DNA of 40,119 nucleotides from Fusobacterium perfoetens (GTDB lineage: Bacteria; Fusobacteriota; Fusobacteriia; Fusobacteriales; Fusobacteriaceae): positions 1 to 40,119 of the forward strand of contig NZ_JADYTX010000018.1 of the NCBI RefSeq assembly GCF_021531475.1, written 5' to 3'. The translations under genes and the position numbers were made by a program. This document shows, piece after piece, positions 7,074 through 33,587 of this stretch (within the stretch, counting starts at the first letter, position 1; the number at the start of each line of letters is the position of its first letter). A model generated the notes under the pieces. That model was given only the letters and a program-made list of their open reading frames with translations, did no database searches and had not been told where the DNA came from.

Positions 7074-7102
7074 TTGACAAAGAGAAAACAATTTTATACA
7101 AT
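7074..7102 (+). promoter_or_regulatory. Promoter of the leader peptide/M20 transcription unit
   Basis: TTGACA (7074-7079), a 17-base spacer and TACAAT (7097-7102), about 30 bases upstream of the leader ORF. It is one of the best consensus matches in the window. Confidence 0.75.
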
Positions 7103-7131
7103 GTACAAAATAAAATTTTTAGGAGGAAACA

Positions 7132-7200
7132 ATGATGCTATTAAGGAGGAGACAATTAAATATCAATTTTAAATATTTATATTGTCTTTCTGTAAACTAA
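7132..7200 (+). CDS. Candidate 22-residue leader peptide with Arg-Arg-Arg and a late Cys codon
   Basis: A short ORF with AGGAGG five bases upstream of its ATG, placed between a consensus promoter and an intrinsic terminator. It begins MMLLRRRQLN and ends YLYCLSVN. The three Arg codons are AGG AGG AGA, and with the preceding base pair they form an internal Shine-Dalgarno-like AAGGAGGAG (7143-7151). The single Cys codon (TGT, 7183-7185) lies five codons before the stop. The last codons and following bases (7194-7206) can pair with 7251-7260 at the foot of the downstream terminator. This layout suggests ribosome-dependent attenuation sensing arginine or cysteine charging, or translation rate; which one is inference. 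A second ATG at 7135 is an equally possible start. Confidence 0.65.
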   Translation: MMLLRRRQLNINFKYLYCLSVN

Positions 7201-7243
7201 GATAGCATATATTTCTTTTTGACGTACATAGATAAAAAAAGAT

Positions 7244-7287
7244 AAAACCAGCTATAGTTTTTTAAGGAAGACTAGGCTGGTTTTTTT
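7244..7287 (+). terminator. Intrinsic terminator in the leader of the M20 gene (attenuator)
   Basis: AAAACCAGC (7244-7252) pairs with GCTGGTTTT (7276-7284), extended by a partial TATAG/CTA match, and is followed by a T7 run. It lies after the leader ORF and before the M20 ribosome binding site, so it can stop transcription of the two downstream genes. Confidence 0.75.
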
Positions 7288-7311
7288 GATACAATTTTTT
7301 AGGAGGAGATT

Positions 7312-8490
7312 ATGGAGATATTAAACAAATTAGAAAATAAATTTAGTGAGATTTTTGAAGACTTAAAAGAGTTAAATGAATATATATACAAAAATCCTGA
7401 ACTTGGAAGAAAAGAGTTTAAAGCTTGTGAAGCTCATAAAAATCTTTTAAAAAAATATGGATTTGATATTGAAGAAAACTATATTGGAATACCTACAGCA
7501 TATTTAGCAAAATATTCATCTGGAAAAAAAGGAATAAAAATAGGATATTTAGCTGAATATGATGCTCTTCCAGAGATTGGTCACGGTTGTGGTCATAATA
7601 TTTTAGGAACAACAAGTATCGGAGCAGGAATTTTATTAAAAGAATATATTGATGAATTTGGTGGAGAGGTTTTAATATTCGGTACTCCTGCAGAGGAAAC
7701 TTTTGGAGCTAAAGTTGATATGGCAGAGGCTGGTTGTTTTGATGATATAGATGTGGCAATGATTTCTCACCCAACTGGAAAAAATCACGAAAAAAGTGGA
7801 ACATCTCAAGCAATGGAAGCTTTACAATTTACTTTCAGAGGAAAAACAGCTCACGCAGCTGGTGACCCATACAATGGAATAAATGCTCTTGATGGTGTGA
7901 TACAATTTTTCAATAGCATTAATGCATTAAGACAACAAACAAAAACAAGTGCAAGAATCCACGGTATAATCTCAAATGGTGGAGAGGCTGCAAATATTAT
8001 TCCAGATTTAGCAGTTGCAAATTTCTATGTAAGAGAAGCTACAACAAAAGAGATGTTAAAACTTAGTGAGCGTGTAAAAAATTGTGCTAAGGGAGCTGCT
8101 CTTGCCACTGGTACGTCTTTAGAAATAGAAAATTATGAATATACTTTCAAACATCTTGTAACAAATGAAAAATTATCAAGTATATATACAAAAAATCTTG
8201 AACTTCAAGGGATAAAAGATATTCCAATGTCTGACCCTACTGGTTCTAGTGACTGTGGAGATGTAAGTCATCATTGCCCAACAATTCATACTTATTTCCC
8301 AATATCTAAGTGTGAACTTACTGGACACAGCATTGAATTTGCAAAAGCTACAATTACAGAAGAAGCTTATCAAGGAATGAAAGAAGCTATATTTGCCCTT
8401 GTGATGACTGGAAAAGATATTTTAGAAAATGAAAATCTTTTAAAAGAGATAAAAGATGAATTTAATCAAATGAAAAAAACTTTAATATAA
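7312..8490 (+). CDS. M20 family metallo-amidohydrolase (PM20D2/AbgB-like)
   Basis: A 392-residue two-domain zinc amidohydrolase that should cleave an N-acyl or dipeptide amide bond of an amino-acid derivative in the cytosol. The first metal site appears in GYLAEYDALPEIGHGCGHN (78-96), with H91, H95 and the preceding acidic residue, and the catalytic/metal pair is in PAEET (126-130). The inserted dimerisation domain begins near 165 (EALQFTFRGKTAHAAGDP), and the closing motif is DPTGSSDCGDVSHHCPT. The ATG follows AGGAGG. It is the first structural gene after the leader peptide and terminator, and is followed 22 bases later by a binding protein, so the pair may recover an imported acylated amino acid. 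The substrate cannot be read from the sequence. Confidence 0.88.
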   Translation: MEILNKLENKFSEIFEDLKELNEYIYKNPELGRKEFKACEAHKNLLKKYGFDIEENYIGIPTAYLAKYSSGKKGIKIGYLAEYDALPEIGHGCGHNILGTTSIGAGILLKEYIDEFGGEVLIFGTPAEETFGAKVDMAEAGCFDDIDVAMISHPTGKNHEKSGTSQAMEALQFTFRGKTAHAAGDPYNGINALDGVIQFFNSINALRQQTKTSARIHGIISNGGEAANIIPDLAVANFYVREATTKEMLKLSERVKNCAKGAALATGTSLEIENYEYTFKHLVTNEKLSSIYTKNLELQGIKDIPMSDPTGSSDCGDVSHHCPTIHTYFPISKCELTGHSIEFAKATITEEAYQGMKEAIFALVMTGKDILENENLLKEIKDEFNQMKKTLI

Positions 8491-8512: not shown

Positions 8513-9247
8513 ATGAAAAAATTTCTAGTTTTAATGTTATCTTTAATTTTATTTGTATCTAGCTTTGGTGCTAAAAAGCTTTATGTAGGAACAAATGCTG
8601 AGTTCAAACCTTATGAATATCTTGAAGGAGATAAAATAGTTGGTTTTGATATTGAGCTTATGGAAGCAATGGGAAAAGAAATGGGATATGAAATCAAATG
8701 GAATAATATGACTTTTGATGGACTTTTACCAGCACTTCAAATGGGAAAAATTGATGCTGTAATAGCTGGAATGTCGCCTACTGCTGAAAGAAAAAAAGCT
8801 GTAGACTTCTCTAAACCATACTTAAACTTCCAAACTGGTCACTCTGTTATAGTAAGAATAAATGAAACTGCTATTGTGAAAAAAGAAGATTTAAATGGAA
8901 AAACTGCTGGAGTTCAACTTGGAACAAAACAAGAAGAATTAGCAAAAGCTTTAGGAGCTAATATAGTTCGTTATGATTCATTCACAGGAGCTTTACTTGC
9001 ACTAAAACAAAGTAAAATAGATGCTGTTGTATTAGATGAACAAGCAAGTGCTAAATATTTAAAAACTATGCCTGAAGTTAAAGTTGCTGATACTATCTAT
9101 GATGAAGATCCTGGAGAATCAATAGCTGTTAAGAAAGGAAATAAAAAATTAATAGAAGAATTAAACAGTGCTTTTGATAAAGTTGTAGAAAATGGTACTT
9201 ATGCAAAAATATTAGAAAAATATTTCCCTGAAAAAGTATCTAAATAA
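8513..9247 (+). CDS. Amino-acid ABC transporter substrate-binding protein (family 3)
   Basis: A 244-residue periplasmic solute-binding protein. The first 19 residues are a signal peptide (MKKFLVLMLSLILFVSSFGA) with no lipobox cysteine. The mature domain opens with LYVGTNAEFKPYEY and GFDIELMEAMG, followed by MTFDGLLPALQMGKIDAVIAGM, the signature of HisJ/ArtJ/FliY-type polar amino-acid binders. It follows the M20 amidohydrolase by 22 bases with its own AAGGAGG and ends at a strong terminator. No permease or ATPase gene lies nearby, so it must use a transporter encoded elsewhere. The ligand (basic amino acid, cystine or a conjugate) is unresolved. Confidence 0.88.
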   Translation: MKKFLVLMLSLILFVSSFGAKKLYVGTNAEFKPYEYLEGDKIVGFDIELMEAMGKEMGYEIKWNNMTFDGLLPALQMGKIDAVIAGMSPTAERKKAVDFSKPYLNFQTGHSVIVRINETAIVKKEDLNGKTAGVQLGTKQEELAKALGANIVRYDSFTGALLALKQSKIDAVVLDEQASAKYLKTMPEVKVADTIYDEDPGESIAVKKGNKKLIEELNSAFDKVVENGTYAKILEKYFPEKVSK

Positions 9248-29405: not shown

Positions 29406-29485
29406 AGTCTTTTATCAATTAATCAACCACTTTTTTATAACTTAATAGCTATCAGATGTCTGATACTCCAAGTGGAGGGTTAATT

Positions 29486-29571
29486 TTACTTCCTTTCGCC
29501 AGCATTATCTGGTTCAAGTAATAAGAGTCGAGGTCGAACCTCCTCTCAGCCAGTTACGGCTCCCCTAGTAA
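29486..29571 (-). promoter_or_regulatory. TPP riboswitch (THI element) controlling thiSGHFE
   Basis: Read on the minus strand the conserved blocks occur in order: GGGGAGCC, GGCTGAGAGG, CTTGAACC-AGATAATGC, and GGCGAAAGGAAG. P1 is TTACT (29571-29567) with AGTAA (29490-29486). The 5' part TACTAGGGGA is complementary to the first arm of the downstream terminator, so an antiterminator can form when thiamine diphosphate is absent. Binding of the ligand would close P1, release the terminator arm and stop transcription. Confidence 0.95.
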
Positions 29572-29603
29572 GTTATATTTATTTAATTTTTAGTTGATAA
29601 TGT

Positions 29604-33499: not shown

Positions 33500-33587
33500 T
33501 ATCCATCAAGAGAGACGGAGGGACTGGCCCTGAGATGTTTCAGCAACCTACTTTATGTGTGGTGCTAATTCCTGTAGATGGCAGATA
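33500..33587 (+). promoter_or_regulatory. SAM-I riboswitch (S-box) controlling metQ
   Basis: Conserved S-box segments are present in order: CAAGAGAGACGGAGGGACTGGCCC, then a short P3 stem and GCAACC, then GGTGCTAATTCC with the following stem. P1 can form between CCATC (33503-33507) and GATGG (33577-33581), extended by TATC/GATA. A terminator follows. SAM binding should stop transcription of the methionine-type binding protein. Confidence 0.92.

Follow-up and report, generated by a model that had tools for sequence, protein, structure and literature searches.

A putative arginine-sensing leader attenuator upstream of an M20 amidohydrolase gene in Fusobacterium perfoetens and its relatives

The window, that is, the whole 40,119-nucleotide stretch of Fusobacterium perfoetens DNA analysed here (contig NZ_JADYTX010000018.1, forward strand), contains a gene for an M20 amidohydrolase followed by one for a family-3 solute-binding protein. 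As a previous reading of the DNA without database searches (the sequence-only reading) had pointed out, this gene pair is preceded by a consensus promoter, a 22-codon ORF with a strong AGGAGG and an intrinsic terminator, all of which are present (Table 1). The promoter matches 11 of 12 consensus bases and is the best-scoring site in the region; looser sites with 9 of 12 matches near the leader occur at chance frequency, and relatives carry a promoter-like site at the matching position upstream of the leader. The terminator was missed by a simple scanner and was found by folding and by a later window-wide scan. On both strands of the 40-kb window, this is the sole short ORF with a Shine-Dalgarno sequence and at least two early Arg codons that is followed by a terminator; it appears twice in the ORF-terminator scan because it has two in-frame ATGs. 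The predicted leader fold stands out from shuffled sequences (minimum free energy z = -4.7) and buries the leader's own Shine-Dalgarno sequence and start codon, its 3' strand being the antiterminator strand. The pairing of AAACT (7194-7198) and ATAGC (7202-7206) with the 5' arm of the terminator, which the sequence-only reading had described, exists as well.

Table 1 Features of the M20 leader region and the genes behind it (window positions).
Feature	Position	Strand	Details
Sigma-70-type promoter	7074-7102	+	-35 TTGACA 7074-7079, 17-nt spacer, -10 TACAAT 7097-7102
Leader-ORF Shine-Dalgarno sequence AGGAGG	7121-7126	+	Pairs with 7212-7222 in the predicted untranslated fold
Leader peptide ORF, MMLLRRRQLNINFKYLYCLSVN	7132-7200	+	22 codons 7132-7197, stop 7198-7200
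Control codons AGG AGG AGA (Arg)	7144-7152	+	Segment 1, on the 5' side of the inner leader hairpin
Cys codon TGT	7183-7185	+	Within the leader ORF
Leader hairpin (1:2)	7119-7222	+	Predicted pairs 7145-7163/7173-7198, 7135-7142/7201-7208, 7119-7129/7212-7222
Segment 2b, AAACTAAGATAGC	7194-7206	+	Overlaps the leader stop; alternative partners 7135-7142 or 7251-7260
Segment 3, GCTATAGTTT	7251-7260	+	Antiterminator partner of 2b; also terminator 5' arm
Intrinsic terminator, AAAACCAGCTATAGTTTTTTAAGGAAGACTAGGCTGGTTTT + T-run	7244-7284	+	About -18.5 kcal/mol
M20 amidohydrolase (TIGR01891)	7312-8490	+	Relative of HmrA and Xaa-Arg dipeptidase
Family-3 solute-binding protein	8513-9247	+	Lys/Arg/Orn-Gln group; downstream of M20

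Related genomes were searched for the peptide, as the sequence-only reading had suggested. The results showed that the leader ORF and terminator are kept upstream of M20 orthologues in three Fusobacteriaceae genera (g1, g8, and g13). Nineteen position-matched M20 leaders, of 22-31 codons, were obtained in full; the Shine-Dalgarno sequence, the position and the Arg codons of the window ORF are conserved across them, and all 19 carry two or more Arg codons early in the peptide, in motifs such as RRRQLNI, RKRQLNI, VRRQLNI, TRRQRNI, LRTLKLR, and KLRIR. The triple Arg itself is species-specific (relatives have RKR, VRRQ, TRRQR, or LRIR at this position), its bases are paired in the predicted fold, and no sign of initiation was seen there, which argues against the suggestion that RRR doubles as an internal Shine-Dalgarno sequence. 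The sequences of the terminators behind the M20 leaders vary by clade, with one doubtful case (L156), and a terminator lies downstream of 71 of 75 sister leaders. One further M20 leader, beyond the 19 (L112 of genome G071), is decayed in appearance. Among M20 relatives in Firmicutes, the eight upstream regions read held no such leader. Short ORFs before M20 in genera g12 and g5 (L010, L012, L120, and L009) were not counted as leaders because their M20 genes sit in operons with a leader before the ABC genes.

A covariance model (R1), built from 12 M20 leaders only, was run on 61 Fusobacteriaceae genomes and gave 43 matches at E-values up to 0.1, in 23 genomes. The matches precede M20, a binding-protein gene with argG, an arginine-type ABC permease with its ATPase, a binding-protein gene with dimethylargininase, or argC-argJ; the context was readable for 42 of the 43 and was an operon of these kinds every time, the remaining match (L179) ending at a contig edge. 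Loci fetched independently of the model gave the same picture, with a leader at nine of 12 argC loci and at all 14 ABC permease loci that were read. The window's own genome has three members, namely M20 in the window, argG (L183), and ABC (L232). Outside the family, argG of Leptotrichiaceae has the leader in genus g21 and lacks it in genus g17. No sulfur genes were found behind the leaders, and a plasmid search gave no match. Furthermore, the C-terminal family of ArgR was detected in none of the 61 Fusobacteriaceae genomes (8 of 14 control genomes were positive); in other bacteria, genes of these kinds are under the control of the protein repressor ArgR/AhrC.

M20 also lies inside arginine operons in genera g5, g10, and g12. 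The cluster shared by G082 and G017 consists of leader, ABC permease, ATPase, binding protein, M20, binding protein, argH, binding protein, and argG, with one additional transporter gene in G082 compared with G017; G010 has a similar cluster, and that of G015 comprises leader, ABC genes, M20, and binding protein. A candidate opine (octopine-type) dehydrogenase-like gene, recognised by eye at L129 (6108-7217, minus strand) and downstream of L012, adjoins M20, binding protein, argH, and argG.

The window M20 protein is a TIGR01891 amidohydrolase, the nearest solved relatives of which are HmrA and Xaa-Arg dipeptidase; the latter (E-value near 1e-59) is the closest with a functional name. The binding protein is nearest to an ancestral Arg/Gln-type binding protein, which we take to be AncQR, and then to other amino-acid binding proteins; its counterpart in the genome's own argG operon shares 45% identity with it. 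Since none of the curated NCBIfam cut-offs that would mark a binding protein or permease as arginine-specific was reached, the arginine specificity of these proteins is presumptive. The presence of argG, argC, ABC, and dimethylargininase operons under the same device argues that the M20-binding protein pair belongs to the arginine regulon, an assignment that we hold with the same good confidence as the attenuator reading of which it is part. The pair may thus be assigned to arginine salvage, probably from Xaa-Arg peptides.

The leader peptides are rich in arginine. Arg makes up 13.6% of residues over 73 leaders, compared with 2.7% of 8,098 codons in the window genes; the leader set had passed a filter of two Arg codons, and two argG leaders, L158 and L183, fell short of it because each has a single early Arg codon. 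AGG accounts for 184 of the 243 leader Arg codons (76%), compared with 12 of 217 in the window genes (5.5%), the R1-found leaders being biased to AGG by the model, and the M20, argC, and protein-fetched ABC leaders not being chosen that way. The preference for AGG could partly be due to pairing rather than codon choice.

Covariation, proposed by the sequence-only reading as a check on the two pairings, was little informative column by column within the M20 clade, where most columns are invariant, and RNAalifold found no common fold in a simple MAFFT alignment of all 18 leader elements. Because clades differ in spacing, strands were instead exchanged between them to test the pairing. The 34 clusters used were defined by hand from operon type and clade because pairwise-identity clustering of these AT-rich leaders lumped unrelated ones. 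In 100,000 permutations, with clusters that are related by descent and no correction for kinship, own strands paired better than swapped ones both in the leader hairpin (z -13, 0/100,000) and in the antiterminator (z -4.0, 6/100,000), and segment 1 resembled segment 3 (54/100,000), so that the swaps favour both pairings across clusters. Reversed or antisense controls of the antiterminator showed no effect; the reversed-sequence control of the hairpin was not wholly flat, with a slight effect (z -1.7). In several clusters (L004, L007, L016, and L014), the antiterminator was weak or not above foreign partners.

When the nascent RNA was folded up to position 7266 under the constraint of a ribosome occupying the Arg codons, an antiterminator was predicted (7194-7199/7255-7260 and 7203-7206/7251-7254); it does not form without a ribosome or with one at the stop codon or the Cys codon. 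Once the transcript is full length, the terminator prevails at equilibrium in each of the ribosome states tested; therefore, the switch would have to be kinetic and depend on timing. Together, swap tests and constrained folding point to mutually exclusive 1:2, 2:3, and 3:4 pairings and, with the conservation, bear out the earlier proposal of a ribosome-mediated attenuator before M20 and the binding-protein gene.

We therefore consider it probable, to a degree that leaves modest room for doubt, that the window leader is a ribosome-mediated transcription attenuator which senses arginine via tRNA-Arg charging and is part of an arginine regulon. When arginine is scarce, the ribosome would stall on the AGG/AGA codons at the leader start and cover the 5' strand of the leader hairpin, thereby freeing segment 2b; the free segment would then pair with the terminator 5' arm, no terminator would form, and the M20 and binding-protein genes would be transcribed. 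When arginine is ample, the ribosome would reach the stop codon and cover segment 2b, allowing the terminator to form. If the leader is not translated, segment 2b would be paired to the start region of the leader itself, and termination would again be the outcome. The argG, argC, arginine-type ABC transporter, and dimethylargininase operons of Fusobacteriaceae would be under the same control. From the sequences and their predicted folds, we infer that the leader is translated, that the ribosome stalls, which way the switch responds, and that arginine is the physiological signal. If correct, the device offers a concrete candidate answer to how arginine genes are controlled in bacteria without ArgR, brings a further amino acid, arginine, within the reach of classical leader attenuation with an intrinsic terminator, and extends attenuation of this kind to Fusobacteriota. 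No earlier report of an arginine leader attenuator was found in the open-access literature searched, outside which most subscription journals lie.

The predicted mechanism follows the classical his/trp scheme but has a new specificity. The his, trp, leu, thr, and phe leaders likewise have a short ORF with many codons for the amino acid under control, competition among three strands, an intrinsic terminator, and operons for the same amino acid downstream; the Fusobacteriaceae leaders differ from them in their arginine signal, AGG-rich control codons, and phylum, and show no sequence likeness to them. Among Rfam leader and riboswitch families, T-box included, none matched the leader over the gathering threshold, the best being Phe_leader at 19.1 bits (cut-off 55). 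Elsewhere in the window, a TPP riboswitch (29474-29576, minus strand) and a SAM riboswitch (33500-33584, plus strand) are over the Rfam threshold. Of the cases that we found in which translation of a leader senses arginine, the nearest is the Salmonella speF leader, in which Arg codons in the upstream ORF orf34 tie expression to the arginine level, and pausing at these codons alters the mRNA fold (PMC6386406). However, speF relies on Rho termination and RNase G and has a second response, to ornithine (PMC6386406), whereas the leaders described here have an intrinsic terminator and precede genes for arginine biosynthesis, uptake, and peptidases. Attenuator-type upstream ORFs before amino-acid genes have also been discovered comparatively in recent work, namely uORFC-8-2 (cysS) and uORFC-13-1 (aroF) (PMC8632094), which concern other phyla and other genes and amino acids.

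ABC and argC leaders also carry a second conserved RNA element, UUUG-NAAA-GAUU-[stem]-AUGAG-YAUA, located downstream of the leader stop and ahead of the terminator. It has 15 invariant columns in 19 sequences (alignment A7, model R2), and its stem shows compensating changes (95.4% paired), with a covariation score reached by none of 500 shuffles. Of 98 Fusobacteriota genomes, 31 have the element, every one of them from Fusobacteriaceae, and it matches nothing in Rfam; carriers include L232, L159, L165, L215, L279, and L282. The copy in the window's genome is at G000:C14:45565-45617, and the window M20 leader lacks the element; M20 leaders of genus g13 have, by eye, an apparent degenerate copy. 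The element is also found before argH, and in L279 and L282 it stands without a visible leader ORF. In L278, L277, and L283, it precedes argH or an uncharacterised transporter gene with argH, and a very short ORF (MKLRQRHI...) lies upstream of it in L278 and L283. We regard the element as a candidate aptamer or protein site. A broader possibility, which we think somewhat doubtful, is that ArgR has been replaced in Fusobacteriaceae by a two-sensor RNA system made of Arg-codon leader peptides and this element. In ABC, argC, and argH leaders, the element sits in the loop of the predicted antiterminator, and before argH-argG and an amino-acid permease gene it stands without a visible leader ORF; in such a system it could serve as a site for a protein or as an aptamer, with arginine or a related metabolite as ligand. 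The window M20 leader would then represent a simplified version with the leader alone.

Other explanations of the window leader were weighed against attenuation by tRNA-Arg charging. The nascent Arg-rich peptide itself, rather than hungry Arg codons, might arrest the ribosome, as happens with SpeFL and the macrolide +X+ leaders; the trigger would be a small molecule, be it a drug, ornithine, or free arginine. R-X-R is indeed frequent in the leaders (LRIR, LRNR, DRNR), a similar RLR motif has been reported in an hflX leader (PMC8632094), and speF orf34 responds to both ornithine and arginine (PMC6386406). However, the C-terminal halves of the peptides are unrelated across clades, several leaders have no R-X-R (TRRQR, RNYR, KRTSYTR), and AGG is favoured although any Arg codon would give an identical peptide. 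A Pfam search with seven leaders, which are very short queries, returned no match, PF10940 of SpeFL included, apart from a spurious EF-hand. We thus consider an arrest peptide improbable.

The sequence-only reading had left the signal open between cysteine and arginine, and the codons and the regulon now support the latter. In a cysteine attenuator, the late Cys codon would control genes for the use of cystine or N-acylcysteine, and Cys does occur in 12 of the 19 M20 leaders, often at the very end. Yet it is absent from the other seven and unenriched over all leaders (1.3% of residues, compared with 1.0% of window codons); the sister leaders precede arginine genes, and the Cys codon lies in or next to segment 2b, where a ribosome yields no antiterminator in constrained folding. 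The cystine/N-acylcysteine role once suggested for M20 and the binding protein also fits poorly with a gene whose nearest named solved relative is Xaa-Arg dipeptidase and which lies inside arginine operons elsewhere. The likeness to actinobacterial Cys leader peptides, compared by their short ORF, Arg residues, and late Cys alone, is superficial, since Cys is not conserved here and sulfur genes were not found downstream. Because of conservation and geometry, we reject cysteine, leaving it only a very slim chance; the signal is very probably arginine.

It is equally hard to believe that the ORF is incidental and that the structured leader is a riboswitch-like RNA binding a ligand or protein. 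Such a reading would draw on the very stable leader fold and on the second element with its covarying stem, above all where no leader ORF is visible. But the window leader has no such element and matches no Rfam family above threshold, the Shine-Dalgarno sequence, start, and Arg codons are retained while most of the hairpin sequence changes, and the codons for S-K-L-R-I-R show synonymous changes. Finally, a constitutive partial terminator, in which ORF and hairpin set a low basal level without sensing, would accord with the dominance of the terminator at equilibrium in all states, but is scarcely credible given the conserved three-strand competition in the swap tests and the coherence of the regulon.

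At two loci of genome G013, L018/L156 (G013:C4) and L168 (G013:C6), a related insertion (ACGGCCGTATGAGTTCTACGAGCTC... and a similar sequence) separates the structural gene from the Arg leader. The inserted sequence is perhaps a small mobile repeat that might uncouple the attenuator from the gene behind it.
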